Below are positions 6,084-45,995 of a stretch of 46,317 nucleotides of DNA, in pieces. Position 1 is the first letter of the stretch; every line of letters starts with the position of its first letter. The notes under the pieces are model-generated. The model saw nothing but the letters and a program-made list of their open reading frames with translations. It ran no database searches and was not told where the DNA came from. Origin of the DNA: a virus. Where the stretch lies: the IMG/VR virus record IMGVR_UViG_3300021962_000188, positions 1 through 46,317 of that record, one strand, 5' to 3'. The position numbers and the translations under genes were made by a program.

Positions 6084-6091
6084 GATTTTCC

Positions 6092-16670: not shown

Positions 16671-16676
16671 TTCTAT

Positions 16677-18517: not shown

Positions 18518-18555
18518 GTTGTATTTATTAACGCAGTACTTTTCTAGGAGTTAAA

Positions 18556-21779: not shown

Positions 21780-21791
21780 TAAAGGTTCCCC

Positions 21792-21947
21792 ATGGCGTTA
21801 ACATTGATTGAGATCAAAGATCGATTAAAGCAGATCGATGAGGTTGATTTACTCGAATTGCTTGAAATATCCTCTGAAGACCTCGTGGAAAGATTTACAG
21901 ATTTAATTGAAGATAATTTTGATAAACTAGAAAGAGAAGTCGAATGA
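21792..21947 (+). CDS. 51-aa acidic protein upstream of ribonucleotide reductase
   Basis: A short frame from ATG 21792 ends in an ATGA overlap with the reductase. The product is an acidic, leucine-rich helix pair (LIEIKDRLKQIDEVDLLELLEIS then SEDLVERFTDLIEDNFDKL). Small acidic helical proteins directly before phage reductases occur often. A regulatory or chaperone-like role is possible but unshown. Confidence 0.6.
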   Translation: MALTLIEIKDRLKQIDEVDLLELLEISSEDLVERFTDLIEDNFDKLEREVE

Positions 21948-25327: not shown

Positions 25328-25338
25328 GGAATCATATT

Positions 25339-28032: not shown

Positions 28033-28041
28033 GTTATTCCT

Positions 28042-29166: not shown

Positions 29167-29181
29167 GATTATTCCTGTTAA

Positions 29182-30222
29182 TTAAAATGCAGAAGAGCCG
29201 TAATAACCGCCTTGATAGCTACCGAAACCGGGATTGGTTGGAGCATAGGGAGCTGCCGAATAACCACCTCCACCACCGCCAAAGAGACTACCAAAGCCTC
29301 CACCGCCACTCATTGCACTACCTAAACCACTAAAGGCTGTTCCTAATGGGCTGTAACCTTGATACTTAGAATAAGCATCTGCAGCAGCAGCTTGTGGTCT
29401 TAAATATAATTCACCTGCTCTTGCGCCAGCCCCTGCTTGTGCATTAGCTAGATCAATACTCATCTGATATGGGTTCTGTCCTAATGATTCAATATTCTTA
29501 GCCAAGTTAAGCTGTGTCTCAATCGGTAAGAACGAACCACTAAACAACGATGGAATACCTGAAGCAAGTTTACCGCCAGCACCATACAGTTCTCCACCAA
29601 ACCGAATACGATTCATGGCTTCTGTATCTGCTTCTGCAGCTAATTGTTTATCTTGTTGGAAGATAGAATTGTAGTATGCTTGTAATGCGGGATTTGCTGG
29701 CGCTCCGCCTGTCCCTGTCTGGACACCTAGACCACCACGACCAGTAGCAAAGTTACGGGCATTGATTCTGCCGAACTCAGCAGCACGGCTAGGTTCTAAT
29801 AATCCTCGTCTATCTGATATATATTTAGCTGCCACATCTTGCGGAGTTGCACCTAAATAGCTACCACCTAAGTTAAATAGCGATGTTGCACCGCCGTAAA
29901 TAGGTTCTGTTAGTTGTTGTAAACGAGTAGGATCGTATCCAGTAGCTCCTGTCGTAAAGCGATTACGCAGAGCTTCTAGTTCTGGATTTAATGTATAACC
30001 AGCCTCAGTTACTTGACCAAGATCGTTTACTTGAAAGTTAGAACTTCCAAAACCAGTTCTCAGTCCAATAGGACGAAACTGTGCCATTTCGGAAGAACGA
30101 ATTCCTGCAGCACGAAGCGTTTCCGCCTGTCCTTTGGCAGCATCTGCTCCCTTGCTTCCTGAAATTAATCCGCCGATGGTTCCTAAAACGGGACCTGCGA
30201 TTGCACTAACAAAGCTACCCAT
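29182..30222 (-). CDS. internal virion / ejection protein with glycine-rich C-terminus (346 aa)
   Basis: It opens MGSFVSAIAGPVLGTIGGLISGSKGADAAKG, a hydrophobic Gly-rich segment able to enter membranes and typical of the first ejection protein. The central region is helical. The last 50 residues are Gly/Tyr/Ser-rich (GGGGFGSLFGGGGGGYSAAPYAP). Its ATG overlaps the stop of the gene at 30222. The set 29182-28042-25339 resembles the three-component ejectosome of short-tailed phages. Confidence 0.7.
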   Translation of the reverse strand: MGSFVSAIAGPVLGTIGGLISGSKGADAAKGQAETLRAAGIRSSEMAQFRPIGLRTGFGSSNFQVNDLGQVTEAGYTLNPELEALRNRFTTGATGYDPTRLQQLTEPIYGGATSLFNLGGSYLGATPQDVAAKYISDRRGLLEPSRAAEFGRINARNFATGRGGLGVQTGTGGAPANPALQAYYNSIFQQDKQLAAEADTEAMNRIRFGGELYGAGGKLASGIPSLFSGSFLPIETQLNLAKNIESLGQNPYQMSIDLANAQAGAGARAGELYLRPQAAAADAYSKYQGYSPLGTAFSGLGSAMSGGGGFGSLFGGGGGGYSAAPYAPTNPGFGSYQGGYYGSSAF

Positions 30223-30509
30223 TATTTACTCCTACTGTAGATGTCATACATTTGTTTATCATTACCTAAAAAGGGTTGTTCATATTTAAAACCAATTACT
30301 TTTGTAAATTTAGTTAGTTTCTTGTCTCGTTTATTAATCATTGCCAGTAAAGGACTGTTAACCAAATACTGTAGTATATTTAAGTCTTCTAAATACTTTG
30401 TCTTTACTTCGTTTGTCCATCTATGCACATCTGTATGAAACCACAACATTCCTTCAAAGAACTCTAAGTACATTGTGTAGTCGTCTCTTAAGACTACAGG
30501 TACTTTCAT
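30222..30509 (-). CDS. hypothetical protein (95 aa)
   Basis: Product rich in aromatic and charged residues (MKVPVVLRDDYTMYLEFFEGMLWFHTDVHRW then TNEVKTKYLEDLNILQYL). The segment FEGMLWFHTDVHRW-----K-----L resembles small N-acetyltransferase-like proteins that accompany phage tail and ejection genes, but no acetyl-CoA loop is seen. It lies between the collar-type fibre protein and the first ejection protein, overlapping the latter by one base. Confidence 0.55.
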   Translation of the reverse strand: MKVPVVLRDDYTMYLEFFEGMLWFHTDVHRWTNEVKTKYLEDLNILQYLVNSPLLAMINKRDKKLTKFTKVIGFKYEQPFLGNDKQMYDIYSRSK

Positions 30510-30511
30510 AT

Positions 30512-31225
30512 CTACGTTTTCATTATGAAGGCGAGGGCGTAGTATGGAGGCAAGTTCTGATTTGTACCGCTAGAACCCTCTGTACTAATCGATGTACTTG
30601 CAGTGATGTTTGCTGTGCTTGAGTTTGTACTTGCACCAGTAACACCGACAGAAGCACCACCAGTGCCAGTCCAGTTAAAGTAAGGGTTAGTACGGGTATT
30701 AACTTCACCATCTTTAATGGTATGTGAGTGACCTGAATCAGTTGCTGTTGTTGTTGCAGTATGAGTATGGCTTACGTTAATAGCATCTTTAGTACCGCCA
30801 GTCTGCGTATTAGAACCAGTTACTGTTGTATAAGCTACACCAGCAGTATCGCTATGTGCGCCGATAATAAAACGATTACGGAGATCAGGAGTGCTGTTAG
30901 AACCATTACATAATACCCATCCTGTAGGAATCGTAGCGATTGTTCCAGACCACATCATAATCATTCCTGATGTAAACGCTGCAGACAAAGCAGTCTGTAC
31001 AAACGCAGTAGTAGCTAATTGTGTTGTATTTGTAGCAGCAGACGCTGTTGGTGCTGTAGGAGTACCAGTTAAAGCAGGACTGTTAATGTCAGCTTTAGAA
31101 GAAATAGCTGAAGCAATAGCAGTAAACTCAGTGTCAATCTCTGCGCCTTTAACAATCTTTCCTGAGTTACCAGTTGGTAATCCGTCTTTAGCTGTAAAAT
31201 TAGTTGCTTTTGTGTAATTTGCCAT
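30512..31225 (-). CDS. tail-collar domain fibre protein
   Basis: Product of 237 aa. The N-terminal 90 residues (MANYTKATNFTAKDGLPTGN ... EIDTEFTAIASAISSKADI) form an attachment segment with a SPALTGTPTAPTA linker. Residues about 95-145 are the tail-collar domain (MIMMWSGTIATIPTGWVLCNGSN, TPDLRNRFIIGA). His-rich HTHTA/GHSHTI repeats follow, known in fibres that bind metal in the trimer, and the end LPPYYALAFIMKT is the usual collar terminus. Host-contact fibre or tip. Confidence 0.85.
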   Translation of the reverse strand: MANYTKATNFTAKDGLPTGNSGKIVKGAEIDTEFTAIASAISSKADINSPALTGTPTAPTASAATNTTQLATTAFVQTALSAAFTSGMIMMWSGTIATIPTGWVLCNGSNSTPDLRNRFIIGAHSDTAGVAYTTVTGSNTQTGGTKDAINVSHTHTATTTATDSGHSHTIKDGEVNTRTNPYFNWTGTGGASVGVTGASTNSSTANITASTSISTEGSSGTNQNLPPYYALAFIMKT

Positions 31226-31234
31226 GTTATGTCC

Positions 31235-32887
31235 TTAGACTAAAGTCTTTCCTTGCTTAATTGCTACGTCTATTTTCTGAATTGAAACTGGATTACCATT
31301 AATATCTGCTTCTAATCCTAACTGAATAACTGTTCCCTGACCACCAGCATTGATGTTAAAGCGATCTAAAACGATACCTGAACTATATTCAGCAATGTTA
31401 TATTCAGATGAGCCGGGAATGGTGTCTACAGTAGAGTTATTATATTCATACACATTAGCAGCATCTAAATTATAAGTAGTAGCTTGATAGCTTTCGCTGT
31501 AATCAAAGCCCCACTTAATTGCTACAGGTTGATTTGTACCGCCAATTAATACCCAACCAACCTTCTTTAGTAATTTAAGATTTGTAGAAGCATCAAAGTC
31601 AAAGTAGTTAGTATAATAAGCTAGACGATAACTAGAAGTATTATCAGCATATCCGTAATACTTACCAATATAGCCCGGCTTACCTATATATAGATCCCTA
31701 GTTTGTGTTACAAAGAATGCTTTAGGCTCGATGCTGTCCCAAATAGTTACCCGCATTGCACCATCTTGTAACGAAGCACGAGTATCAAAACAGTATGCAA
31801 ACTTAGTTGTAGGAAGCGTTAGTAAATATATAGCGTCACGCTCATAATAGATACTCTTAATCTTAGTTAAGTCTGTCTCAGACGCTACAGCAGTCATTAA
31901 CTCATCACGAACATTCTTAGAGATGTCACGCAGAGGTAGCGACTTCTCTTGAATTACTCGTTGTAGACTACGAACTCCTGAGTCAGATAAGAATAAGACA
32001 TCCGTTGCAATATTCTGTACTGAATCTCTAGCAATACATCCTACGTTATAGATAACTTCAACAAGAGTTAATGCTCCTGTGTCTAACGGATTAGCATAGA
32101 TTGCTATATTTTTACGACCAAAGAATATAATATATCCATTGTGTGCTGCAGCAGCGACTACAGGATCTCCATTAGGGAGAACTTCTTGTAGGTTAATATA
32201 GCCAGCAGAGCCGTTCTGAAAGTCTGTACCAGCTAATAGGTCACTGAAATAGACAGTCTGAGTGTCTCCTGAGATACCGCCGCACCATATCCTGCCATAA
32301 GCGGATAGCACCCAACTAGGCATAAAGGTAGAAGTACTATGATTAGAAGGTAATGTAGCAGCATCTCCTACTCTTTGATAACCAAATGTATTACTATTGT
32401 GGGCATGAAAAGCACCACCAGAAGTAGGTAACTCATGATATATTAACATTGGGTGTGCGTCTTGTGCTAAATACACATGAGGCTGGAAGTCAGTAACATC
32501 TCCGTAAGATATCGCAGCACCCTGCCAGTTATTTGCTGTAATGGTATAAGTAGCGTTGCCACTATTATCTGCATTACGCACTGTCTTAGTAGTCATCGTA
32601 GTTGTTCCTACGAATAACTTATTATTACCAGCACTTAATAATTGATTAGCTCCTCCGTCTACTAGTTCAAACAAAAACTCCACTGCATTGCCTGATCCTA
32701 AGTCAGTATTAACTGAGGAGTTGACAGGAGTCCATCCACGTCTTGCTCCGATACGACCATACTTATCAATCACACAGTTCTGAGCTTTTAGTGCAAAGCC
32801 AGAAGACAAAGTAATACTAGACTCTTGGAGGTTAAGTCCATAGAATCCCGGTGCTGCTATTGATGATGTTAATAACTTACTAGCCAT
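31235..32887 (-). CDS. tail tube / needle-region protein (T7 gp12 or P22 gp10-like role)
   Basis: I prefer ATG 32887, which overlaps the upstream stop (TAATG), giving 550 aa. The start MASKLLTSSIAAPGFYGLNLQESS and GFALKAQNCVIDKYGRIGARRGWTPVN are characteristic of phage tail tubular B or stabilisation proteins. The body is a beta-rich series of propeller-like repeats (WVLSAYGRIWCGG, HNGYIIFFGRKNIAIYA, DVLFLSDSGVRSL). The protein extends the short tail below the adaptor ring. Confidence 0.82.
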   Translation of the reverse strand: MASKLLTSSIAAPGFYGLNLQESSITLSSGFALKAQNCVIDKYGRIGARRGWTPVNSSVNTDLGSGNAVEFLFELVDGGANQLLSAGNNKLFVGTTTMTTKTVRNADNSGNATYTITANNWQGAAISYGDVTDFQPHVYLAQDAHPMLIYHELPTSGGAFHAHNSNTFGYQRVGDAATLPSNHSTSTFMPSWVLSAYGRIWCGGISGDTQTVYFSDLLAGTDFQNGSAGYINLQEVLPNGDPVVAAAAHNGYIIFFGRKNIAIYANPLDTGALTLVEVIYNVGCIARDSVQNIATDVLFLSDSGVRSLQRVIQEKSLPLRDISKNVRDELMTAVASETDLTKIKSIYYERDAIYLLTLPTTKFAYCFDTRASLQDGAMRVTIWDSIEPKAFFVTQTRDLYIGKPGYIGKYYGYADNTSSYRLAYYTNYFDFDASTNLKLLKKVGWVLIGGTNQPVAIKWGFDYSESYQATTYNLDAANVYEYNNSTVDTIPGSSEYNIAEYSSGIVLDRFNINAGGQGTVIQLGLEADINGNPVSIQKIDVAIKQGKTLV

Positions 32888-33543
32888 TAGACCCAGTTCC
32901 ACTGAGATTCTTCAACATAGCGATTTGACTCTAAGGAGATAGCATCCGCTAAACTTTGGCGATACAGTACATATGTCTCACCAGACTGTACTCCGCCATC
33001 TTCTCCACGCTCTGCTTGCGCCCTAGCCAATGCACCTAAGATGACTGGCTCATCAGGAACCAACAATTTATCAGCGTTGACTGCTAAAGGTACTTGTGGT
33101 TTAATAATGTTGAATCGAATGTCATAAGCACCGTTAGGGATTGGGAATAAATCTACCTGAGTATCTCCGTCAGAGTTAGTACCGTTAAAGTTATAGTACT
33201 GTGGAGAACCTTTTTGTGCTGTTGTCAATAAGAATTGCTGATCCATCCAAATAGTAGGAGCATTCATGAGAAAGCCATTACTGGTATCGTTTAGGACATC
33301 AATAACCCTAAATCGCTGACCAGAGCCGACTAACACATAGTTAAAAACATCGGCTGTTGTAGTAGCAGATAGTGTCTCTGATAAAGCATTCCAGTTATAA
33401 GAATCCTCAACCTGTCGTTTTGAATCGTTTACATACTTGGCAATGAGCTTAACATAGGCGTTATCGGATACCGAGGAAGCCTCTGGCTCTCGCAGACGAA
33501 TAAGCACGTCATTAACAAGTTGGATATAGTTCATTGAAGCCAT
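32887..33543 (-). CDS. head-tail adaptor / tail tubular A-like protein
   Basis: Product of 218 aa. It begins MASMNYIQLVNDVLIRLREPEASSV and continues through YVKLIAKYVNDSKRQVEDSYNWNAL, the helical pattern of phage adaptor rings (gp4/gp11-like) that dock under the portal. The rest is beta-rich with TQVDLFPIPNGAYDIRFNIIKP. It is paired with the tube gene downstream, as in other podophages. A promoter-like element overlaps its start region. Confidence 0.85.
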   Translation of the reverse strand: MASMNYIQLVNDVLIRLREPEASSVSDNAYVKLIAKYVNDSKRQVEDSYNWNALSETLSATTTADVFNYVLVGSGQRFRVIDVLNDTSNGFLMNAPTIWMDQQFLLTTAQKGSPQYYNFNGTNSDGDTQVDLFPIPNGAYDIRFNIIKPQVPLAVNADKLLVPDEPVILGALARAQAERGEDGGVQSGETYVLYRQSLADAISLESNRYVEESQWNWV

Positions 33544-33549
33544 TGCGTT

Positions 33550-33578
33550 ATCCTATCATAGTTTGACTATTTTGTCAA
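33550..33578 (-). promoter_or_regulatory. promoter candidate for the adaptor-to-lysis segment
   Basis: On the minus strand TTGACA (33578-33573), 17 bases, TAGGAT (33555-33550), six bases before ATG 33543. The -10 also contains AGGA at ribosome-site distance, so the match may partly reflect a Shine-Dalgarno. It lies in the 43-base gap after the 81-aa gene. Confidence 0.45.
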
Positions 33579-33586
33579 GTAAAATC

Positions 33587-33832
33587 TTAACAATCCCATT
33601 TCTTTAATGCCAAGGCTTTGCGAGTAGGTCTGCCTTTTGCGTCCTTCATCGGACCTTTAACGCCTCCCATCCTTGCACAGAAGCTCTTACGTCTTCCAGC
33701 CGCTTTAGGGGACTTTGCAGCCTGTTTAGCCGAAACTGGGGGTTTGAGGTCAGCGCCTTCAGTTCGCTTGAAATAAGCCCTTCCTTTGGCGTTTAAACCA
33801 CCTTTGGGATCCTGATATACTTTCTTTACCAT
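33587..33832 (-). CDS. DUF6321-like small basic protein
   Basis: Product of 81 aa, rich in Lys and Arg. The pattern KGGLNAKGRAYFKRTEGADLKPPVS and RRKSFCARMGGVKGPM fits a widespread phage family that I know as DUF6321. Function is unknown; very basic proteins in the late region may be packaged with DNA. It is the last of four tiny basic proteins encoded end to end. Confidence 0.75.
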   Translation of the reverse strand: MVKKVYQDPKGGLNAKGRAYFKRTEGADLKPPVSAKQAAKSPKAAGRRKSFCARMGGVKGPMKDAKGRPTRKALALKKWDC

Positions 33833-33987
33833 TATTTCTTTTTCTTAGCTGTTTTAGCAGACTCGATAAAGGCTTTAGCAGTAGGAGCGCCTTTGCTGCC
33901 TACCTTACGCATCTTCTCGCCTGATCCTGCGGCAATACGCTTACGCTTTTGAGCAATGTTATAGTACAAGCCCTTTTTAGTAGCCAC
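33832..33987 (-). CDS. 51-aa basic protein (GLYYNI-type)
   Basis: Starts at GTG 33987. The product MATKKGLYYNIAQKRKRIAA then GSGEKMRKVGSKGAPTAKAF is a very recognisable small phage protein found in many aquatic phages, without known function. It is 40 percent Lys/Arg/Ala. Its stop shares a base with the next start codon. It was easy to miss because of its size and GTG start. Confidence 0.75.
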   Translation of the reverse strand: MATKKGLYYNIAQKRKRIAAGSGEKMRKVGSKGAPTAKAFIESAKTAKKKK

Positions 33988-34111
33988 GCATAGCTCCCAT
34001 CTTCTTCATGGGCTTAGCAACTACTTTAGCACCAGTCTTCTTAGCATACTGCTTAGCTTGCTTCTTACCCTTAGTTGTATAAGGGAATTTCTTATCTTTG
34101 ACCATTGGCAT
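33977..34111 (-). CDS. 44-aa Lys-rich protein
   Basis: ATG 34111 has AAAGG about eight bases upstream. The product is MPMVKDKKFPYTTKGKKQAK then QYAKKTGAKVVAKPMKKMGAMRGY. Small basic proteins with 'KFPYTTKGK--AK-YAKKTGAKV' are common in phages next to the GLYYNI-type gene. Function unknown, possibly DNA-associated. Confidence 0.7.
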   Translation of the reverse strand: MPMVKDKKFPYTTKGKKQAKQYAKKTGAKVVAKPMKKMGAMRGY

Positions 34112-34112
34112 G

Positions 34113-34256
34113 TTACTTACCTTTCTTCTTTGGTTTAGGAACTTTAGCTGTTTGTAGTGCAATTGCGACTGCTTGCTTCTGTGGTCTTCCTTCTTTAACC
34201 ATCTTAGAAATGTTCTTACTGATTGTCTTTTGAGACTTACCTTTAGCGAGTGGCAT
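34113..34256 (-). CDS. 47-aa Lys-rich protein
   Basis: ATG 34256. The product is [20 protein letters not shown] then [27 protein letters not shown]. The core [22 protein letters not shown] is widespread in phage genomes, often several genes from the head genes, with no known role. It opens the cluster of four small basic proteins. Confidence 0.75.
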
Positions 34257-34265
34257 TATTGTTCC

Positions 34266-34616
34266 TTAGTTAAACTGTTGTACGGTACTGCGTTGTTCTA
34301 ATTCTACAGTGACGATACAGGTAGTTACTGAACCTGTCTCCGACTGTACTCTGATTTCATCACCTTCGTCTAGCATTACATAAGCCTGTCCATCTATTCT
34401 GAGAAAATTCTTAGCAGTGATAGCATACTCAGACAACACTTCAATCTCAACATTCTCACTAGAGTCGTACCACCACACATCAATCCACTTAGAAGATGCA
34501 CTGTGATTAGTAGCAAAGAGTAATAACCACTTAGCCATGTTCCTAGTTGGAACAGTAAACATAGTAGTCTTAGTGTTAGCTACTAAGTTCTTACCTACGG
34601 AATGTGATCTACTCAT
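34266..34616 (-). CDS. hypothetical structural protein (116 aa)
   Basis: Product of 116 aa with beta-strand character (KTTMFTVPTRNMAKWLLLFATNHSASSKWIDVWWYD; ENVEIEVLSEYAITAKNFLRIDGQAYVMLDEGDEIRVQSE). The pattern of a WIDVWWYD strand followed by FL--DG-AYV-L-EGDEI resembles small virion decoration or completion proteins in related phages, but the name is uncertain. Its ATG overlaps the stop of the 50-aa membrane protein. Confidence 0.6.
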   Translation of the reverse strand: MSRSHSVGKNLVANTKTTMFTVPTRNMAKWLLLFATNHSASSKWIDVWWYDSSENVEIEVLSEYAITAKNFLRIDGQAYVMLDEGDEIRVQSETGSVTTCIVTVELEQRSTVQQFN

Positions 34617-34924: not shown

Positions 34925-36070
34925 TTAAAGTTCCGCAGAAGCATACCAATTGCCTAATAGCAACAATTGGCTACCAGTTGTTAGAGAACCACCTGATGTA
35001 TTTACAACACTAAAATTATTCATATTTGAAATTCCAACAACTGCTGAATTAGCGGCTAAATCAGTTCCAACATCATTAGAAATTCTGCTTGTATTTGTTG
35101 CGGTTGTGTATGGGTAAACTGTTACCGTTGGTGCAACTCTTTTTGTCACACAAAAATAACCTGTTGCGTAATAAGCATTATTTCCAACAGTTGTTGACCA
35201 AGTATTAGGTGACCAAGATGTTTGGTTGATTGCTGTAATTGAAACGCTTTGCAATGCTGATTTTTCAAAATACCTCTGACACAAAGCCAATTCAGTTCCA
35301 TAAGGTCTGTAATCAAAGCTAGTAGCTGTAGAGCCTACCTCAAGCTGAACTCCTGTGATGTAGAAAGTTGCTCCGTTTGTGCCGACTACGGATGTTGCTC
35401 CTGTAACACCCCAAGGATTAGCGGCTTGCCAAGAACCAGCACTAATATTGTTTGAAGAACCAACACCAAGACCAAAACGAATACCAATTCCTCGGCTGTT
35501 ATCAGTTGACCAAGTGCCAGTTGTATCTCCAGCTAATGTTAGCGTTTTGTATTCCCAAGTATTAGCAGAAGAAATTGTGTAAGTTAAACCATAACTTCTT
35601 GTACCACCACCATTTTGAACAATTATTCCAAAAGTTCCAGTTAAAGAACTACGCACCCAAAATGACAAGGTAACTGTTTTAGCATTAGCTGTTCCCCAAT
35701 CTAAATCAGCAATATTGTTTCCTTCAATAGGATATTGCAATACAAAATAATCTCCTGATGCAACGGAATATGCCGATGACGATGTAACACCTAAGTATTT
35801 AGTAAAACCAACAGGCGGTGTTACAGAACCAGCGTTTTGTTGAATAGTGTATTTGCTTGCCGCGGTTCCCCACGCATCCCATCTATCAACAGTCCAAACA
35901 TCACCATTAACATTTGTAACACTAGCACCAGCATTACGCTGGTCAATCACCATCGCACCGTTGATGATGCGGTTCTTAAACTGTGTAACTGGCACAAGAT
36001 ACTCAGAAGTATCTGCACCGCCATAAGTAGGGGTTGTTATTCCGTTTGTGCCGTCTAGCGTGATAGCCAT
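34925..36070 (-). CDS. tail fibre / tip protein with jelly-roll-like domain (381 aa)
   Basis: The N-terminus MAITLDGTNGITTPTYGGADTS is the usual attachment tag of such tail proteins. FKNRIINGAMVIDQRNAG and DRWDAWG follow, a well-known start of phage carbohydrate-binding tail modules. A beta-rich domain (TVTLSFWVRSSLTGTFGIIVQ ... ITGVQLEVGSTATSFDYRPYGTELALCQRYFEKS) resembles CBM-like jelly rolls. The C-terminal 100 residues are variable. Probably binds host surface glycans. Confidence 0.82.
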   Translation of the reverse strand: MAITLDGTNGITTPTYGGADTSEYLVPVTQFKNRIINGAMVIDQRNAGASVTNVNGDVWTVDRWDAWGTAASKYTIQQNAGSVTPPVGFTKYLGVTSSSAYSVASGDYFVLQYPIEGNNIADLDWGTANAKTVTLSFWVRSSLTGTFGIIVQNGGGTRSYGLTYTISSANTWEYKTLTLAGDTTGTWSTDNSRGIGIRFGLGVGSSNNISAGSWQAANPWGVTGATSVVGTNGATFYITGVQLEVGSTATSFDYRPYGTELALCQRYFEKSALQSVSITAINQTSWSPNTWSTTVGNNAYYATGYFCVTKRVAPTVTVYPYTTATNTSRISNDVGTDLAANSAVVGISNMNNFSVVNTSGGSLTTGSQLLLLGNWYASAEL

Positions 36071-36243
36071 TATTGAATCTCCGCTAATTGTTCATCGGTT
36101 GGTTTAAACAATGTAGGATGTTCCCACTTTGCTATGTAATCGCCACGACCATTGCTGTCGTTTTGTAACACCACTAAACCATTAATAAAATCCTGTGGTG
36201 TAAGGCTTGGATATAAAGCCATAATCTTTTGAAATAATGTCAT
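36070..36243 (-). CDS. 57-aa tail-assembly-type protein (XkdW-like)
   Basis: ATG 36243. The product begins MTLFQKIMALYPSLTPQDFI and then NGLVVLQNDSNGRGDYIAKWEHPTLFKPTDEQL. The pattern 'YPSL---DF----I-LQ-D--G--YI-KWEHP---PT-EQL' is a common small phage tail protein, sometimes annotated XkdW-like. It follows the 184-aa tip gene with a four-base overlap, and probably assists its folding or assembly. Confidence 0.7.
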   Translation of the reverse strand: MTLFQKIMALYPSLTPQDFINGLVVLQNDSNGRGDYIAKWEHPTLFKPTDEQLAEIQ

Positions 36244-36794
36244 GCTGCCCTCACTAAATATCCACAGAACTTACGCAAATAGTTATTAGAACCTACACCA
36301 GCAGTAGCTGAATATCCTTGATAGCCGAATATTTCAATGTAGTCAGTAGAACCATTCATATAAACAACAGCCGCTACTGTTGCAACAATATCGTTTCCGT
36401 TTGTAGAGTTAAAATTAGTTCCATCGCAATATCTTGAATTGTTTTTAAATATTGAAGCAAAACCACCGCCAGTTGCGGTAACAGAAAAATAGATAAATGC
36501 CTCGATTTGATAGTAACCAGCAACAGTTGGTGTAAACCGATTAGATGCAAAGTTATTATTAGTGTCAAAATCTTCAGTATCAAAAGTAACTTTTGTAAAA
36601 GTGTTTTGCGACATCGTTACTAAAGCACTTCCATAAACACTAAACGCTGGCATATTACCGCTAACCATCGCTGTTCCTGTAACGGATGGCACAGTAACTA
36701 AATTACCAGTTCCTGATGCTAACTGTAATACACCGCTATTATCAGCAGATTGAGTAAGTCCGCTTGTGGTTGTTGCCGTTATAACACTAGCCAT
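36240..36794 (-). CDS. tail-tip protein with C1q/TNF-like beta domain (184 aa)
   Basis: The N-terminal 50 residues (MASVITATTTSGLTQSADNSG ... VPSVTGTAMVSG) are an attachment module. Residues about 52-184 form a compact beta domain: FSVYGSALVTMSQNTFTKVTFDTEDFD, then YYQIEAFIYFSVT, then YIEIFGYQGYS and a closing CGYLVRAA. This order resembles C1q/TNF-fold domains used at phage fibre tips. It overlaps its small partner gene downstream. Confidence 0.72.
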   Translation of the reverse strand: MASVITATTTSGLTQSADNSGVLQLASGTGNLVTVPSVTGTAMVSGNMPAFSVYGSALVTMSQNTFTKVTFDTEDFDTNNNFASNRFTPTVAGYYQIEAFIYFSVTATGGGFASIFKNNSRYCDGTNFNSTNGNDIVATVAAVVYMNGSTDYIEIFGYQGYSATAGVGSNNYLRKFCGYLVRAA

Positions 36795-37057
36795 TATGCT
36801 ACTCCCTTCGGATACTTAGCTTTAACTGCTAAACAGTCAGCAATGTATTTATCAATCTGTGCTTGGTCGTTCTTTACTACACCATCGATGTAATCGGTGA
36901 TGGGTGGGTATTCTGCGGCTCGTTTAGCAATATAAGCATGAGCATCTACATAAGCCTGTTCTTGCTCTGCTTTTGCAATTTGTTCGGCAGTCATCGGTAC
37001 AACGCTTTCAGTTGTTTCGCCCGTTGTTACATTTACAGTAATTGTTTTATATTCCAT
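36794..37057 (-). CDS. tail-associated small protein (87 aa)
   Basis: Product of 87 aa: a short strand (MEYKTITVNVTTGETTESVV), then helices MTAEQIAKAEQEQAYVDAHAY and KRAAEYPPITDYIDGVVKNDQAQIDKYIADCLAVKAKYPKG. The second half is a frequent phage module (YP---DY-DG-VK-D--Q---YI--C--VK-KYPK). It follows the 221-aa tip gene and is likely its assembly partner or a tail component. Confidence 0.7.
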   Translation of the reverse strand: MEYKTITVNVTTGETTESVVPMTAEQIAKAEQEQAYVDAHAYIAKRAAEYPPITDYIDGVVKNDQAQIDKYIADCLAVKAKYPKGVA

Positions 37058-37060
37058 AAT

Positions 37061-37726
37061 TTACTCGTAAAGAATGTTAATTGAACCAGCATCGAATGTA
37101 TTTGGTGTTGCACTTGTTAGTCGAACTTGAGTTAGTACACCTGATAATGAAATATTACCAGCGGTGTGGTTGGTATTTCCATTGTTGCTTTGTCCCGTTA
37201 ATTGACCATTTACTACCCAAACATTTCCTGTTTGATTTACTAAAACAATAGTGCCAGAAAATAATTCTGTAGCAAGCGGGCTACCAGCAACTATAACAAA
37301 CGAAGAAGAATGGGCGGTGTATGAATTTGACGAAGCCGCTTGTCTAGCAGAATAACCAACATATCCACTTGTTGCAAAACCGCCCGATGTTCCAAGTCTT
37401 AACCAATAATCGCTAGTTCCGTCAGTTGACACACCTTGATACATCACAGTAATTCTTTTGACCCAAGAGGGAATGTTAGTAAAGTCAATAGAAGTACCGC
37501 TAGTAGAAGCTACAGCAGTACCGCTAACAATTTTAGCTGTTGCAGTATATGTAGAACCATCGGTAGAAAAAGGAATTTGACCAACAGCAGAAGGCGATGC
37601 TAAAAGTTGTGATGTTAAAGCAACAGTTCCGCTTGTGGCTGGTAAGTCTAATACAGTAGTACCAGCAACGGCTGGTTCTTGTAATGTAACGCTACCTGAA
37701 GTTGAGCCTACTAAAACAATACTCAT
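37061..37726 (-). CDS. tail-tip/fibre protein (221 aa)
   Basis: I choose ATG 37726, which aligns with the start of the left-edge paralogue, over GTG 37738. Residues 1-70 (MSIVLVGSTSGSVTLQEPAV ... STDGSTYTATAKIVSG) are the shared attachment module. Residues 71-221 are a beta-rich domain (PSWVKRITVMYQGVSTDGTSDYWLRLG, WVVNGQLTGQSNNGN), similar to other phage tip domains. The first 60 codons lie on the DNA repeat shared with positions 1-180, so the gene spans the presumed junction between two phages. It overlaps the fibre gene upstream by four bases. Confidence 0.75.
   Translation of the reverse strand: MSIVLVGSTSGSVTLQEPAVAGTTVLDLPATSGTVALTSQLLASPSAVGQIPFSTDGSTYTATAKIVSGTAVASTSGTSIDFTNIPSWVKRITVMYQGVSTDGTSDYWLRLGTSGGFATSGYVGYSARQAASSNSYTAHSSSFVIVAGSPLATELFSGTIVLVNQTGNVWVVNGQLTGQSNNGNTNHTAGNISLSGVLTQVRLTSATPNTFDAGSINILYE
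37520..37699. repeat. 180-bp block repeated at the left end of the window (1-180)
   Basis: Positions 1-127 equal 37520-37646 exactly. Three mismatches follow (128-130), then identity to 180, then divergence. There is no gap, so the constant offset is 37519. The match starts at the very first base of the window. See findings for the closure interpretation. Confidence 0.95.
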
Positions 37727-39345
37727 AATATTACCCACCTTTGTCCTGATGCAATCGTTACAGAGTAACCGCTGTTAATTGTGATTGGCCCAACTGACAG
37801 GCAATTGTTGCCAGATGTCGTTGTAATGTTTTCTGCAATCGTGGTGCTGTTATAAGCAATTGCTTTAGTAGCAGCTGATCCAAAGTATTGGCCACCAGCT
37901 ACGGCTGAGGTTGTAACCGATGTTACTAATCCCTTGCCGTTAACTGTAACTACAGGAATAGAACTAGACGAGCCAAAGGTTCCAGTAGTTGAGTTGACTG
38001 TTGCTAATGTCAGAGCAGACGATCCAGCAGAGCTAGTCGCATCACCAGTAAACGCTGGCAGTCTGGCTGCACCGAGTGTGCCACTAGAGATATTGCTTGC
38101 GTTAGTGGTGTCGGTTGTTGCTGATGCAACTAAGCCAAGGTTTGTCCTGGCTGTTGATACTGAAGTCAGATCAGAAAGGTTGTTTGCTTTAGCAAGATAG
38201 TCTGTGCCGGATACATAGGCTGCTACCCAAGCAGATCCTGTGTATACCTTCATGGCTCCTGATACTGAGTTGAAGTACAAAGAGCCAGCGATTAGAGCGT
38301 TGCCATCGTTGTCTAATGTTGGATCGCTAGTCTTGCTACCAAGATATCTGTCATCAAAGTTATCGTATGCGGTTAGCGTTGCATCACGAGCTGCCTCGGC
38401 TGCGGTCTGTGCGTTGCCAGCAGATACGGCTGAGGCTGCTGCGTTGGTTGCGTTGGTTGATGCGTTCTGAATAGCAACAATGTTTGTAGCGTTTGTGTTA
38501 ACCGCTGCAATGTTTGTAGCTACAGTATTAACGTTAGCAATGCCAGAGGCTACTGTGCCGATATCTGTTGCATCCGCTGCTACTGCGGTAACATCCGCAG
38601 AGATGCCAGCAACTGTGCTGACACTAGCAGACACGCCAGCGACTGTAGTAACGTTGCCTGAGATACCAGCAACAGTTGTAACGTTAGCGCTGATGCCAGC
38701 AACTGTGGTTACATTAGAGCTGATACCGGCTACTGTGGTTACGTTACTAGATACTCCAGCAACTGTATTGACGTTAGAGATATTGCCAGCAACTGTGTTA
38801 ACGCTTGCTATATTTGTAGCGACAGTATTGATGTTTGCTGACTGAGCCGCGACTGTGGTTACCGATGCAATACTTGGGCCAGCCTCTGGGTTACCAGTTG
38901 TTGCGTTAAACGCTAGGACTGTACCAGCACGAGTTGCCTTAGCTGGCAAGGTCATGTTGATGTCTGTAGGATCTACTACTGGAGCCTTGAGGCCACGCTC
39001 TGCGGTCTCGGCTACTTGCTGTGCGTAGATGGTCTGTGAGTCTAGGTCAGTATTAAGGGTGCTGGCGAACAAGTCACCGCCTGTCGTATAGTCGCTAGTG
39101 CGTTGAATTGCTCTTGCGCCAACAATCGTAATATTGCCTGTGCCAGCGGTTACTAGGGTAATTGATCCTGTGCCGTTAGCATTGATGGTTACGCTGTAAT
39201 CTGTGGTCAGAGTCAGCAATGTACTGCCCCGATATACAGCGATATCGGTATTGGCAAGAATTTCAAACGTAAACGAGTATGGCCCGACACCAGTATTGGT
39301 GTAGACCACTCGTCTTGCTACGTTAGATATCGCATAATCAGCCAT
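37723..39345 (-). CDS. tail fibre with T7 gp17-like N-terminal domain (540 aa)
   Basis: Residues 1-150 match the T7 tail-fibre attachment domain: RRVVYTNTGVGPYSFTFEILANTDIAVYRGSTLL, TTGGDLFASTLNTDLDSQTIYAQQVAETAERGLKAP. About ten copies of a 14-residue pattern (NVTTVAGISS, NVNTVAGN) form the shaft at about 165-290. The segment AQTAAEAARDATLTAYDNFDDRYLG and LYFNSVSGAMKVYTGSAW is shared with the fibre at 217..1563. It ends SGQRWVIL. Unlike the rest of the late genes it contains GGCC sites, so it marks the start of the compositionally distinct segment. Confidence 0.88.
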   Translation of the reverse strand: MADYAISNVARRVVYTNTGVGPYSFTFEILANTDIAVYRGSTLLTLTTDYSVTINANGTGSITLVTAGTGNITIVGARAIQRTSDYTTGGDLFASTLNTDLDSQTIYAQQVAETAERGLKAPVVDPTDINMTLPAKATRAGTVLAFNATTGNPEAGPSIASVTTVAAQSANINTVATNIASVNTVAGNISNVNTVAGVSSNVTTVAGISSNVTTVAGISANVTTVAGISGNVTTVAGVSASVSTVAGISADVTAVAADATDIGTVASGIANVNTVATNIAAVNTNATNIVAIQNASTNATNAAASAVSAGNAQTAAEAARDATLTAYDNFDDRYLGSKTSDPTLDNDGNALIAGSLYFNSVSGAMKVYTGSAWVAAYVSGTDYLAKANNLSDLTSVSTARTNLGLVASATTDTTNASNISSGTLGAARLPAFTGDATSSAGSSALTLATVNSTTGTFGSSSSIPVVTVNGKGLVTSVTTSAVAGGQYFGSAATKAIAYNSTTIAENITTTSGNNCLSVGPITINSGYSVTIASGQRWVIL

Positions 39346-39382
39346 AATATTTCCCTAATCTAGTTGATTTTTTCATAAAAGT

Positions 39383-42268
39383 CTATCGCTTGTAGTTCCC
39401 ATATTCACGCTTTAATTGCTCTACATCTCTTAGAGCCTCGGCAAGATCGGGGTCTTCTGCAATTAATGTTTTCTTAGCCATGCTATATCGATCCGATATC
39501 TCTTTTTTAATAATTGCCTGTGCAGCGCCAAGATTGGTAAGAGCCTTTTCCTCTAGGTTTGGTCCAAGATTTTCAATTGCCTTTGCTAATATTCCATCTT
39601 GGGTAGCCAGTTCAATCCAGCGGTTGTACTGAGTGGCAGACAATTCAATACCCTCAATACTCTTATCTGGGCCATCAAGTGGAACACCATACTCAACCAA
39701 TACAGCGTGAGCTGGGCTAAACTTTCCATCAGCTAACTTGAATGGGTTAAACATTTCATAAAGGTTACCTTTTCCAACCTTTTGTACGTCACCAGTAATT
39801 GGGTCATACTGACGTGGCAAGCTATCGGATGTCAAAGAATTGCGAGACTTGTAGTAATTGACAGCCTCATAGAATCCACGCACAGCCGCATCCATACCAG
39901 AAAACTCTGTACTCATTTTCTCTGGCATTGTATTTGATCTGGTTGGGTCTACAATGCGTTCAACAGATGCCACAAATGAACTATGAGCGCCTAATGGGGA
40001 GCCACCAACAGCAAACTCTGTTACTTGTTTGCTTGTGTTTTTAATAAAATCATAAAGTTTTGATGGGCCATCTTTAGAGCCAGATGTAAATATTTTTACA
40101 ACCTCATTAAGTCCTTGGATCGCTGGCTGCTCTGATAAGTATTGATATACACCAAGAGCAGAACCCATTGCCATCTTGTCTAAATCAGATCCACGTCTAG
40201 TCAACTGTGCATACTCACCAGCCGTAGCACCGATTCCAAGCAATGTAGCAATTGGCTCTAGGCCAGCATAAGAAATATATACTTTGTCTGGGCCATATTT
40301 AACTGACGTAATCTTTTCAAACTCAGCCAACAAGTCTGGGTCAACGTCAGACTTGTTAAACATAAATGAAAATGGCTGCCATCCAGTTCCCTCTAGCGCC
40401 TTCTTATCTTCTCCACGCATTGGGCCATAGCCTGTCAACTTACCTTCAAATACACCAGCACTTACTGAATACATCATTGCACCGCCAAGGGTAACACGAG
40501 CCATTGCTTGGTCTCTGCGAATACCGCCAGCATTGTAGTCTCCCCAGAATCGTGGGCTTGCAAAGTTTAAGCCTGGAGTTCTAGCAAATGCCTCTAGAGC
40601 AATGTTGGTTGGGGTCTTAATAAATGGTACAAATATCTTAATTAATGGATATTGAGCAACTGACTGCATACCCTGTAATGATTTCTCTAGTTCACGAGTA
40701 AACGTAACTGTACGAGATACAGCCTTAGCGGCCTCATCAACATCTGGGGTAGGATTAGCAAGCAAGCTGGCAGTTAAGTCGGATGCTTGTTTAGCTGCAT
40801 CGTCTGGAGACAAGCCTGTTTGTATTAACTTCTTATACATTCTATCGCCCTCTCGGACTGCAAGAGCATTCAATTCCATACGATAGCCAACTGCTTTGTA
40901 GAACTCATCCTCTGCCATAAGCGCTCTGCCAGGCAATGTAACGAACTTGCCCCAATAACGTAACGCATTACTAAAGGCTTTGCCTGTCTCAGAGTCACCA
41001 AAGTCAATGTCAAATGCATCTCGCCCAACTCGGCCAGTTTCAATCTTAGTGAATGGATCGGTTGACGTATTCTTGACAAATGCAGTAGCAGCTATTTCTC
41101 CACCTTCTCTGATACCTTGCAAGAACCCAGCAGCTTGAGCATATACCTCATTCATTGAGATAGCCTCTTCGCCACCCTTGAAAAATAGGTTTCTGCCTTT
41201 TCCTATAAAGGATGCAACGGCTCGCTCTGGCATCTGTAATGCGCCAAAGAATAAGTTACCCGCAATATTCTTTGCGTGGGTTACTGGGCTAGACAATAGA
41301 CCATTAATCCAAGTTGAGAACCATATGTCTTTCAATGTCCCAGATATTGTTTTTTCTGCAAGGTCTCCCATAGCAGATTTGCTTGATAGGGCTGTGTACT
41401 TGTTAGCCAAATCAAATGCAGAATTAATACCACCGGCTTCAGTCATGAGACCAGAAAGCATCTCACCTCTATTTACTGATGACTGTCTAGCTTGGGAGAA
41501 GATACCGAGGGATCTAGCAATATCAATTTGCCTACCCTTGACGGCCTTAACAACAACTCCTTCATAAGCAATGGCCTGTAAAAACTGAGAGGATAAATCA
41601 TCTGTTAATTCACCATCTTTTTTGGCTTGCTTAACTTTTAACCCAAGGTCATAGGTTCTCTTGCTGGCATCAGACTGAACCAACAGCATCTTGTATGCTT
41701 TGCCGTAGTCAGCCTCTGTGGCCACGCTTGGATCTAGCAGTCTGGCAACAAATGCCTCATCGTATCCTTCAGCGGATGCCTTAGCAGCAAAATCTGTATA
41801 GCTAATTCTTTCAAACTTATCTGCGCCAACTGACCTAGCAACAGCCTCAATGTGCTGTTTAAAAGTGTCTGGGCCATCAATTAAATCTAGATTAAATACA
41901 GTCTCCGGCACACCAGCTGCAACCTCTGTTGGTGTGGGTGAGGGTTTACCCGTAGTCGGCATGGATGGGGTAGCTTTTTCAATAGCCTCTGCCTGTGCTG
42001 GTTTGGCCTCTTTAATGACTGTATAAGGGCCTACTTTCCCTGTCTCTGTACCTTCGGGTAGGATAGGTCTTTCTGTGCGCTTAGGAGCCTTTTTAACTGC
42101 CCTCCTAATCATTGATTCAAACCCAGCTACTAGAGTTGGCTCAAACTCAGGATTCTGATCTGTTAGCGCAACTGGGTCTACTGGCTCGGATTCTGGTGGC
42201 AGCGCAGCAACATCTTGCTCTACTGTAGAGAGCTCATCTAAGCGCTCGTTTAATGGCTTTATAGACAT
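39383..42268 (-). CDS. large internal virion protein (961 aa)
   Basis: The N-terminal 110 residues are acidic and Pro-rich (disordered). Two or three hydrophobic Gly-rich stretches follow (WINGLLSSPVTHAKNIAGNLFFGAL near 320; RVTLGGAMMYSVSAGVFEG near 595). The rest is helical, including DEFYKAVGYRMELNALAVREGDRMY. This mix is seen in very large phage proteins ejected with DNA. No protease or transglycosylase motif is evident. Its ATG overlaps the stop of the 702-aa gene. It belongs to the segment with GGCC sites. Confidence 0.65.
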   Translation of the reverse strand: MSIKPLNERLDELSTVEQDVAALPPESEPVDPVALTDQNPEFEPTLVAGFESMIRRAVKKAPKRTERPILPEGTETGKVGPYTVIKEAKPAQAEAIEKATPSMPTTGKPSPTPTEVAAGVPETVFNLDLIDGPDTFKQHIEAVARSVGADKFERISYTDFAAKASAEGYDEAFVARLLDPSVATEADYGKAYKMLLVQSDASKRTYDLGLKVKQAKKDGELTDDLSSQFLQAIAYEGVVVKAVKGRQIDIARSLGIFSQARQSSVNRGEMLSGLMTEAGGINSAFDLANKYTALSSKSAMGDLAEKTISGTLKDIWFSTWINGLLSSPVTHAKNIAGNLFFGALQMPERAVASFIGKGRNLFFKGGEEAISMNEVYAQAAGFLQGIREGGEIAATAFVKNTSTDPFTKIETGRVGRDAFDIDFGDSETGKAFSNALRYWGKFVTLPGRALMAEDEFYKAVGYRMELNALAVREGDRMYKKLIQTGLSPDDAAKQASDLTASLLANPTPDVDEAAKAVSRTVTFTRELEKSLQGMQSVAQYPLIKIFVPFIKTPTNIALEAFARTPGLNFASPRFWGDYNAGGIRRDQAMARVTLGGAMMYSVSAGVFEGKLTGYGPMRGEDKKALEGTGWQPFSFMFNKSDVDPDLLAEFEKITSVKYGPDKVYISYAGLEPIATLLGIGATAGEYAQLTRRGSDLDKMAMGSALGVYQYLSEQPAIQGLNEVVKIFTSGSKDGPSKLYDFIKNTSKQVTEFAVGGSPLGAHSSFVASVERIVDPTRSNTMPEKMSTEFSGMDAAVRGFYEAVNYYKSRNSLTSDSLPRQYDPITGDVQKVGKGNLYEMFNPFKLADGKFSPAHAVLVEYGVPLDGPDKSIEGIELSATQYNRWIELATQDGILAKAIENLGPNLEEKALTNLGAAQAIIKKEISDRYSMAKKTLIAEDPDLAEALRDVEQLKREYGNYKR

Positions 42269-44376
42269 TATTTATTATCCTCTTGTTGCACAGCAGCACC
42301 ACCAGCGCCAATGGCAAATAATGGTTGACCTTTAGTTAATACTGATTCTTTCATTTTAGGGGTAACGTCAATATATTGAACAGATGGATTATCGCCAGCT
42401 AGAGCCTTAATTGCGTCAACCTTAGTTGCATATGAGTTGTAATTTATTCCATCACCAGAATCAACAAGGTATTTTCCATTTTCAAATATGATTTGATTTT
42501 CAATGTTTACATTGCTTGTTGTTATGTTGGTCATGCCAGTTTTAGCATCCCACTTTTTGGCATACTTGTCTAAGAATTTGGGTAGGATTTGGTCATAAAA
42601 CTTTTTCATTCCTTCGCCACCGACTTGCAAATCCAATCCGTCATAACTATGCTCATTTCCTGATTTATTAGCAAAGTCATCTTTAACCTTTTCGGCTAAG
42701 TCTTTTCCTACATACTCATCTAAATTTCTTAAATCAGGAACTGTTTTATATATTGCTAGTTTGCCGTTTTTATCAGTAGCCTGAATAGTAAAAACAGACT
42801 GATCTCTTTTAATAGTAATGTCTTGAATTTGTTTGCTCAAATCATAACGCTCGGCCTGAGTCTTTCCAGTAGTAAATGCTACTCGGTCATAGCCACCTTC
42901 CGCGGCTAACTGAATAGCACGTTTCATAGCAAGTTCATGCCATGTGGTTTTGAATGGAGCATCTGGTACAGTTCCCATTTGCTTTAAAAGCTCATCTTTT
43001 TTGCGCCATAAAGCAGAAAACTTTTCTTCATCAACAATCTGATTTGTTACTGGATCTCTAATATCAGCTAGATTTGACATTTGCTCCTCAATGTCAAGAA
43101 TCTGTTTTTCAACTTCTAGATTTTTGTATCCTCTTTTGCGCCCAGTTTGGTGCCAATCAGACTGTACCTCTTCTACGAATAGCACTTTCTTGCCGTCAGT
43201 ATCTACTCGGTCATTGACTCGGAGATGGGCTAGGATATTGGGTTGGTCAAAGTGGCTCGATTGATAGGTCTGTGATTTTATTTGGTCTTTTAGTGATTGT
43301 GCCGCTTCCTCTGCTTTATCTCTAAGTTTTCTTGATTCTGCAACTTTTTGATACAACGCAGCGTTGTTAGGGTCTCCAGGATTTAACTCACTTGCAGATT
43401 TCCATTGCTCCATTAAATTAGCAGTTTGTAACCTTAAATCCCCCGCCACTTTTTGAGCAGAGTCTAATTCAGTTTGCCCACGAGTAGGCAAAGTCAACAA
43501 TATCTCTCGATAGTTCTCGCCACCTGGTAAAGTGTATTTAGAGAACTTAGGCAACTCACCGCTATATGTTGCTGTTTTGTTATCAAGATTTACCTCTTGC
43601 ACATCAACTCGGTTCTTGTCCAAGAACTCTTGAACCTCAGCCTTAGTAACGGATTTCTTGGATTTTAAGAAGTCATCTAACCCAGTCCATTTAATCTCTT
43701 CTGGCTTTACTCCGGGTGTCTTCTCAATCTGTTTTAAGAACTGCTCACCAGTTCCCTTGGGTTGTTGGATAGAATTAACTGCCTCTTTAGCTGCTGAGTA
43801 AAAGCCAAGTTCGCCAACACCCTCGCCTACCATCTGCGTACTCATGCCAACTGGCATATTCTTGGTGGCTTTTACAGCCTTGGTAGCGCCTTTAACCACC
43901 TTTGGCACATCTAGCAATCCTGGTGCTGGCAAGAACTCCCCAACAGCTTGTGCTACATCAACTGTCTTTTGGCGCTCTGCTGCATTTGGTGCGTTAGCTG
44001 GTACAACTTGTGGCAAGGTATTGCTTTGCAAAACCTCTTCAGAAGTTGGGAACATACGCTTTCCCATTACAGCCTCTGCACCTTCTTGATTAATCAAGTC
44101 AACAATAGAGCGGATGTCTCCAGGCAATCCAATCGCAGCGCCTGTAGCACCACGCATTGCGCCAGCCAAGGTATCCAATAAAGCAATTAATGGCTTATCT
44201 AAACCGCCAGCCTTTGCTGACTGTTGAGGAGTAACACCAGCTCTGCCAAGACGAACCCCAGTTTGTGGAACGTCAGACGTTATTGGCCCAGCAGCCAACA
44301 TCGTATCCTCTACAGGCATCTCGGTTGGCAAGACAAAGTCTTTAGCCAAGTCATCCATAAATCGCTGGTCAATCAT
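42268..44376 (-). CDS. polyvalent-type internal protein (702 aa)
   Basis: Residues about 60-190 include a hydrophobic segment (LIALLDTLAGAMRGATGAAIGLPG). From about 215 there is a conserved block: GTGEQFLKQIEKTPGVKPEEIKWTGLDDFL, KFSKYTLPGGENYREILLTLP, VEEVQSDWHQTGRKRGY, PFKTTWHELAMKRAIQLAAEGGYDRVAFTTGKTQAERYDL, and FYDQILPKFLDKYAKKW. These motifs (E-x-Q-S-D-W-H and the TTG-Q-ER-DLS element) occur in large polyvalent proteins of phages and conjugative elements thought to enter the host with the DNA. Enzymatic activity is unknown. It overlaps both neighbours. Confidence 0.7.
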   Translation of the reverse strand: MIDQRFMDDLAKDFVLPTEMPVEDTMLAAGPITSDVPQTGVRLGRAGVTPQQSAKAGGLDKPLIALLDTLAGAMRGATGAAIGLPGDIRSIVDLINQEGAEAVMGKRMFPTSEEVLQSNTLPQVVPANAPNAAERQKTVDVAQAVGEFLPAPGLLDVPKVVKGATKAVKATKNMPVGMSTQMVGEGVGELGFYSAAKEAVNSIQQPKGTGEQFLKQIEKTPGVKPEEIKWTGLDDFLKSKKSVTKAEVQEFLDKNRVDVQEVNLDNKTATYSGELPKFSKYTLPGGENYREILLTLPTRGQTELDSAQKVAGDLRLQTANLMEQWKSASELNPGDPNNAALYQKVAESRKLRDKAEEAAQSLKDQIKSQTYQSSHFDQPNILAHLRVNDRVDTDGKKVLFVEEVQSDWHQTGRKRGYKNLEVEKQILDIEEQMSNLADIRDPVTNQIVDEEKFSALWRKKDELLKQMGTVPDAPFKTTWHELAMKRAIQLAAEGGYDRVAFTTGKTQAERYDLSKQIQDITIKRDQSVFTIQATDKNGKLAIYKTVPDLRNLDEYVGKDLAEKVKDDFANKSGNEHSYDGLDLQVGGEGMKKFYDQILPKFLDKYAKKWDAKTGMTNITTSNVNIENQIIFENGKYLVDSGDGINYNSYATKVDAIKALAGDNPSVQYIDVTPKMKESVLTKGQPLFAIGAGGAAVQQEDNK

Positions 44377-45992
44377 TTTTGAATAATCCTTACTTGTCTC
44401 ATAATCTTTTTGCGAATATCTTCGTTATCAATGCCAGCTCGTTTTAAATCTGCATCAGTCCATTTTTCGTTATATTCAATTTTATTATCTGTAGAAACTC
44501 TTTTAAGCTCTTCTCTAGCTGTTGTTTTTGCAGTAACAACATCAGAAATTTCTTTCTGTTTAACAAGAGTTTGGGCAGCATCCATAGCATTAAATGCTGT
44601 TCCAGTATCTAATGCAGTTTGTTTCATTTGAGCTAATGTTGCTTTTGCTCTAGATGATTTTGCTTTGGAATCCTCAAGACCTGGAGACATCGGATCATTA
44701 ATGCCAAGAGTGTTGTCAATAAACTGTCTAGCAGCGCCCATGTCTTTCTCGTTGCCACGAGCAATTTTTTTGAGAGTGTTTGCCTGTCTCCAAGATATCT
44801 GACCATTCTTAGCAAGGGTATCTATGTCATTCTCGCCCAACTTACCTCTGTCAGCCTGTGACTCAAATGTTCCATAGTTCTGTGGATTAGCACCAGCCAA
44901 ATCACCATTGAGCCAAGCCTTGCGCTTTTCGTCTGGCAACGTAATGCCTAATGCTTTAGTCCTTCTGTAAGCCTCTGAGCCACTAATTTTGCCAGCATAT
45001 AAATCATCTTCAATCGTATTTAATTCATCAACATTTTTTGATGCATTTAACTTACTAGCACGATCCCACATAACAGCTTCTTCACCAGCTCTTTCAATAT
45101 ATGCTTTCTTGAGCCTATCTCTATCAATTGTTTTCATTACTTCTGACAACTTACCAAAGTTACCAGACTCAATGAGTTTAATTGCTTGGGATGGGGTATC
45201 GGCAAATGTAGGGCTTAGCGTGTAATCAACAACAGCGTTCAATACTCTTTTATTAAAGTCTTCTCTGGTTGATTTAACAAACTCAGGATTTCCTGTTTCC
45301 ATAGCAATGTCAAATACTCTAACACGCTCAAGTTGTATACGATTTGCTAATATTTTTGGATCGTTTTCTGCTTTTAACGTATCAGCAATAATTGTTGCTG
45401 ACGATGCTATTAAATTATCAGCCAAAGCAATTTTTTCCTGAACAACAATCTTTGCATAATTTTCAGTAGCTTTGACATATACTGCATTGCCAGCGGTAGC
45501 CATTGAGCTTCTGAACTTTAAACCTTCTTCAGCATCTACAGCGCTAATTGCTCTAGCATATCCAGAAGTTAATGATTTAATTGTTGTTTGCACCTCATTT
45601 AAACCAAGCGCACCAGTATCTAAAGATGCACTTAATCTAGATAATTCTTGACGGCCAATAACCTCTAATTCATTCCGCAACTGACCAGCTTGTACTTTTC
45701 TAGCGGCATCACCAAATACTGTGCCTGGTTGTGCAAACAGATCAGATGGACTTTTGCCTTCTTTCATAGCCGTCATTACTTGCTCTGCGCTAGGCATATT
45801 CTCAGCGCCATACTGCAAGCCTTCTCTTTGTGCTTTTTCGGCAGCCTCTTTAAATGCAAACCCAGCCAACCGATCCAAGGCAGAATTAATCCCCTGAGTC
45901 ATGGCTACAGACTCTTTAATGTTGGCAAAGTCTAGACGTGGAACATCTGCTGGCAAATAGCCAGTTGGTTGGTAGCGTGGAAGTTCTGCCAT
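44373..45992 (-). CDS. internal virion protein, helical (539 aa)
   Basis: It begins MAELPRYQPTGYLPADVPRLDFANIKE, then almost entirely long helices of Ala, Lys, Glu and Leu (EAAEKAQREGLQYGAENM; KVQAGQLRNELEVIGRQEL; NRIQLERVRVFDIAMETGNPEF). It has no membrane segment. The opening and helical body resemble internal core proteins (T7 gp15-like role) of podophages. It sits between the smaller N-terminal ejection gene (45996 onward) and the polyvalent protein, in the order expected for an ejectosome. Confidence 0.62.
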   Translation of the reverse strand: MAELPRYQPTGYLPADVPRLDFANIKESVAMTQGINSALDRLAGFAFKEAAEKAQREGLQYGAENMPSAEQVMTAMKEGKSPSDLFAQPGTVFGDAARKVQAGQLRNELEVIGRQELSRLSASLDTGALGLNEVQTTIKSLTSGYARAISAVDAEEGLKFRSSMATAGNAVYVKATENYAKIVVQEKIALADNLIASSATIIADTLKAENDPKILANRIQLERVRVFDIAMETGNPEFVKSTREDFNKRVLNAVVDYTLSPTFADTPSQAIKLIESGNFGKLSEVMKTIDRDRLKKAYIERAGEEAVMWDRASKLNASKNVDELNTIEDDLYAGKISGSEAYRRTKALGITLPDEKRKAWLNGDLAGANPQNYGTFESQADRGKLGENDIDTLAKNGQISWRQANTLKKIARGNEKDMGAARQFIDNTLGINDPMSPGLEDSKAKSSRAKATLAQMKQTALDTGTAFNAMDAAQTLVKQKEISDVVTAKTTAREELKRVSTDNKIEYNEKWTDADLKRAGIDNEDIRKKIMRQVRIIQK

Positions 45993-45995
45993 AAT

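Follow-up and report, generated by a model that had tools for sequence, protein, structure and literature searches.

A 46.3-kb viral metagenome record that very probably joins a closed podovirus genome to part of a second phage beside a conserved adhesin-gene core

Does IMG/VR record IMGVR_UViG_3300021962_000188 describe one linear virus genome, or two phages joined during assembly? The window analyzed here is the whole stretch of DNA, 46,317 nucleotides. A sequence-only reading had proposed that it holds one circularly closing phage genome (1 to 37519) and that the assembly then overran into a different phage. Our sequence comparisons support this interpretation, and each of its predictions that they could address was borne out. 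The window is very probably a chimeric metagenome contig, made of a closed 37,519-bp genome of one lineage (lineage A) and 8.67 kb of another (lineage B). Its features are listed in Table 1.

Table 1. Features of the window, with position, strand, and basis of assignment
Feature	Position	Strand	Basis or remark
Lineage A podovirus genome, predicted as one full circular turn	1..37519		Gene-by-gene matches to lineage A; relatives G001 and G003 closed on themselves
Putative 127-base assembly node, first placement	1..127		Inside fiber-tip gene, lineage A side; exact copy of 37520-37646, from contig edge
Hyperconserved 44-bp core, A copy	131..174	-	Preferred codons in 82-99% of contexts
Fiber fibA	217..1563	-	Directly after major capsid protein gene (lineage A order); phrog_38058 tail fiber; best match G023
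Head/packaging: capsid, scaffold, portal, TerL	1654..8356	-	PHROG; 85-93% to G001 except g187
Replication: primase-helicase, DNA polymerase, exonuclease, ribonucleotide reductase	14205..23848	+	PHROG
Holin, presumed ejection genes, collar, tail tubular genes, g116	24462..34616	-	PHROG for holin, collar, tail
Cassette genes g87, g184, fib381	34925..37057	-	Similar-strength matches in lineages A, B, and C; g184 better in B and C
Fiber-tip (adhesin) gene fib2	37061..37738	-	phrog_29482, phrog_18673 (tail fiber); the reading from 37519 to 1 gives the lineage A version, joined ORF open
Putative 127-base node, second placement	37520..37646		Path should close to base 1 but would exit into phage B; mismatch first at 128
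MEP301-related phage (lineage B), 8.67 kb	37647..46317		Internal virion protein and neighbors 56-93% to lineage B records, 0 lineage A records
Hyperconserved 44-bp core, B copy	37650..37693	-	Same core as 131-174
Fiber fibB, lineage B	37723..39345	-	93% over full length to G021
Internal virion (ejection) gene set, lineage B	39383..45992	-	phrog_6651 internal virion protein at 39383-42268; absent from all lineage A records tested

Repeat at the contig edge

Bases 1 to 127 are identical to bases 37520 to 37646. Mismatches follow at 128, 129, and 130, and bases 131 to 180 are identical again. Over the whole of 1 to 180 and 37520 to 37699, 177 of 180 positions match with no gap, and similarity is gone from 181 onward. 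BLAST within the window reproduced this repeat as first described, including its start at base 1. The E value was 2e-88, so the match is no chance event. The only other internal matches of the window are a 72% match between fibers (866 to 1146 with 38171 to 38451) and short repeats. An exact 50-base pattern taken inside the 127-base block had 0 matches in IMG/VR, and the fiber tip itself is therefore not placeable elsewhere.

On the minus strand, 207..1 fused to 37519..37061 gives a single open and complete fiber ORF with a terminal stop. The frame is thus kept across the predicted closure, as had been claimed. The accompanying wording, that the gene at the left edge would be completed by the right-hand part, needs correction; the minus-strand gene at 37061 to 37738 is already complete on that side. 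The A version of the fiber-tip gene begins MSIILQGS...LTLPA and the version at 37061 to 37738 begins MSIVLVGS...LDLPA. The two differ in their first residues.

Two phage lineages in the window

Relatives in IMG/VR form two sets on separate contigs, one for the capsid protein (L003 to L082) and one for the internal virion protein (L083 to L115). Lineage A is an uncultured podovirus lineage. Across whole records, A and B have 0 to 12% of their ORFs in common, against 21 to 76% within A and 51 to 80% within B. The portal, TerL, primase, polymerase, RNR, and tail genes of A are missing from lineage B records, and the ejection genes of B are likewise missing from lineage A records. Markers of A and B occurred together in 0 of 88 distinct loci that carry the adhesin core described below.

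From 1.6 to 34.6 kb, the noncassette genes tested have lineage A matches at 51 to 96%, and in lineage B they are absent or much weaker. The exception is g187, which matches neither. PHROG hits place a full packaging, head, fiber, tail, lysis, and replication set within 1 to 37519, as the earlier reading had it, with the content and order of closed lineage A relatives. Three genes of phage A (g897, g374, and g346) are presumed ejection genes, judged by position only. The second fiber and second ejection-type set noted after 37.7 kb both match lineage B. Genes from 37.7 to 46.3 kb match that lineage only, which agrees with an overrun into a different phage. The window contains no B head genes.

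A search for complete relatives of about 37.5 kb had been suggested. Those found are about 35 to 40 kb (left part) and about 33 to 35 kb (right part), and each group closes on its own. The nearest A record, G001, has 39,978 bases and a self-overlap of 187, and it closes at 39.8 kb. G003, also of lineage A, has 34,821 bases and a self-overlap of exactly 127, and it closes at 34.7 kb. Self-overlaps in lineage B are 329 (G007), 476 (G010), and 123 (G021) bases. The gene order in G001 is MCP, fiber, g87, fib381, g116, and then tailA across the record ends, uninterrupted. This is the order predicted by closing the window at 37519/1, and it supports closure.

Edge blocks and the assembler

An edge block that recurs internally was present in 12 records, the window included. 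It is exactly 127 bases long in seven (G001, G003, G007, G015, G017, G018, and the window). The first mismatch falls at 128 in six of these (the window and five others); in G003 the block runs to the other end. Blocks of 33 to 126 bases, not 127, were present in G005, G010, G013, G016, and G021.

Where an assembly breaks, both metaSPAdes and MEGAHIT leave ends of length maxK; the largest k used in that work is 127, a metaSPAdes setting (COBRA paper, PMC10914622). That largest k and the recurrence of exactly-127 blocks in related records agree with the suggestion that 127 is an assembler k-mer signature. The maxK contigs of PMC10914622 likewise have branch-point ends with maxK overlap, and self-circular contigs are recognized there by end overlap. 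The window is unlike them in that its path runs past the 127-base overlap into another phage, and the record therefore shows no end repeat.

A de Bruijn assembler, presumably with 127 as its largest k, would have started the contig at a branching 127-mer. The path would have gone once round the closed 37,519-bp lineage A podovirus genome and back to the same 127-mer. From there it would have taken the second branch and continued for 8.67 kb in a co-occurring, MEP301-related phage of lineage B. Both phages of the sample would carry the whole 127-mer, that is, the same adhesin-tip start, as a branch at 128 requires. The assembly error would thus have arisen because both phages share short, almost invariant DNA at the start of a host-recognition fiber gene. 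The branch point adjoins the 44-bp core of that gene. The 127-base identity is a product of assembler construction, and alone it is no proof of recent natural exchange.

The related record G015 (IMGVR_UViG_3300046779_000327; L246 to L248) is 45,505 bases long, with a unit of about 35.3 kb; the segments concerned are 1 to 10242 and 35061 to 45505. It overruns its own circle by 10,242 bases into sequence that is 71 to 92% similar, and its 127-base edge block recurs internally. It is a second large circle-overrun record, like the window.

Such records bear on data quality. The present one would pass a 37.5-kb genome off as a linear one of 46.3 kb. Taken at face value, it would falsely tie the head genes of A to the ejection genes of B. 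Records of this kind, G015 among them, are detected by testing for an edge block of exactly k bases that occurs again inside the record.

Alternative readings of the contig

Gene-by-gene comparison showed matches to several lineages for fib2, g87, g184, fib381, and the lysis genes. The cassette at 34.9 to 37.5 kb fits A, B, or both, which makes the exact sequence of A in this segment uncertain. Relatives of the tip protein reached 56% identity at most in a scan and were of no help in assigning the cassette. In one variant of the chimera, the cassette would come from phage B only, with the switch between fib381 and g116 (34617 to 34924) and a different tip in A. The matches of fib381, g184, and fib2 to B or C records, as good as or better than those to A, point that way, and the same cassette order is present in lineage B. 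However, a branch at 128 needs the whole 127-mer in the A-side read path, and lineage A relatives, too, have g87 and fib381 beside g116. We consider this variant improbable.

That the record is one true genome of 46 kb or more, in which a fiber and ejection module is duplicated, is very hard to credit. In its favor, the contig runs without a break and both copies keep the reading frame. However, the B genes are not A paralogs; their matches lie in a different lineage that has head genes of its own, and the B ejection genes occur in 0 A-type or core-bearing contigs. The repeat begins at contig base 1, with a length as at the edges of other records, and closed A relatives reach only 34.7 to 39.8 kb.

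Fainter still is the chance of an overrun into a strain variant of the same phage, of the kind G015 shows at 71 to 92% identity, since the genes from 37.7 to 46.3 kb belong to lineage B and show homology to A structural genes in the fiber regions only, and those from 39.4 to 46.3 kb were looked for and found in separately closed B genomes.

Conserved core of the adhesin gene

The joining of A to B remains our reading of the contig, and the core beside the branch point was examined across IMG/VR. With every codon permitted for SVTLQEPAVAGTT, the search matched 106 stretches. The core occurs once in each of the 106 contigs, in 88 distinct contexts. Contigs that bear it span at least five lineages (107 contigs, 31 of 107 without lineage assignment). 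The preferred codon has a share of 82 to 99% in the core versus a background of 13 to 70%; GCC for alanine stands at 96% versus 13%. The core is conserved at synonymous sites and has no lineage structure. Its identity in 15-base steps is 0.91 to 0.98 between lineages and 0.92 to 0.99 within them, and about 0.3 on both flanks.

Similarity between lineages extends from the core on one side only. Among 1,869 cross-lineage pairs, an extension of at least 150 bases was present upstream in 58, downstream in 29, and on both sides in 0 (87 one-sided); these extensions are ungapped, hence also ended by indels, and many pairs come from related contigs. One-sided extension is the pattern that crossovers at the core would leave. 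On this basis the core would, with slightly better than even chances, be a short homology joint for adhesin-tip exchange among phages of one host group. The gene g87 (36794 to 37057), which follows the variable tip immediately downstream, is partly conserved between lineages, with a DNA identity of at most 0.80 per 15 bases. It is possibly the second arm of an exchange cassette.

Doubtful, by comparison, is the view that the core is kept for some other DNA or RNA function (a hairpin or an overlapping gene) and not as a recombination joint. The core (131 to 174, minus strand) does contain a perfect hairpin, ACCAGC-CGTT-GCTGGT, in which a 6-bp stem encloses a loop of 4 bases (fold z = -1.9), and one antisense frame stays open in 88 of 88 contexts. 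However, stem changes are mostly uncompensated and the antisense frame is short (median, 57 codons), and both structures were set aside as unsupported causes of the core. The one-sided cross-lineage sharing fits exchange.

DNA-invertase sites were also considered. The core is single per contig in 106 contigs, which speaks against inversion. Contig ends lie within 100 bp of the core in 7 cases versus 2.2 expected (p of about 0.007), a moderate enrichment. We give it no weight, because the core, at 44 bp, falls short of k and near-end detection is biased.

Among isolates, protein starts that resemble the leader were confined to four Methylophilales and two Prochlorococcus phage records, which hints at a common host group for the core-bearing phages. 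On this reading the core would be a single 44-bp joint, near-invariant in many phages that share a host group (probably Methylophilales) and are otherwise unrelated. We regard it as an evenly balanced matter whether this joint is a common socket for trading receptor-binding tips. A near-invariant adhesin joint in at least five phage lineages would offer a testable route for host-recognition exchange between unrelated phages.

Comparison with known systems

Six coliphage genera have a 44-nt motif before the receptor-binding domain, 63% identical on average, that was proposed as a recombination hotspot for swapping (PMC10408124). The core resembles it as a short motif beside a variable receptor-binding part, conserved above its surroundings and present across phage groups. 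It differs in its identity, which is 0.91 to 0.98 between at least five uncultured lineages against the mean of 63%, and in its position, where a separate tip gene begins. We class the adhesin core as a stronger instance of this already published coliphage-type swap motif, and the contig itself as an artifact.

T-even phages are related myophages. Their adhesins are swapped between conserved motifs, as cited in PMC10408124 (Tetart, Desplats and Krisch 1998). The present case is unlike that swapping of distal tail fiber motifs in that lineages with few common genes share one joint. Distantly related Alteromonas phages have tail fibers in common (PMC10579305).

Methylophilales phage MEP301 (MW452941.1) has a genome of 34,774 bp (PMC8024684). 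It encodes a homolog of the B internal virion protein, and its tail fiber start is like the leader (63% over 38 residues). It is unlike phage B in that the internal virion protein, the sole protein compared with MEP301, is only 35% identical. Leader DNA was not found in isolate phages by DNA search.

Other observations on phage A

A 28- to 29-base repeat (93%) lies at 9157 to 9184 and 10542 to 10570. Its copies stop 3 bases short of the start codons (9187 and 10573), and it is possibly a shared phage promoter or leader. An amidoligase-like gene (phrog_2443) is present at 9187 to 10542, in an AT-rich stretch. The holin gene (24462 to 24875) is 92% identical in G013 (lineage C) and 94% identical in G022 (lineage A), so the lysis module, too, seems to move between lineages.
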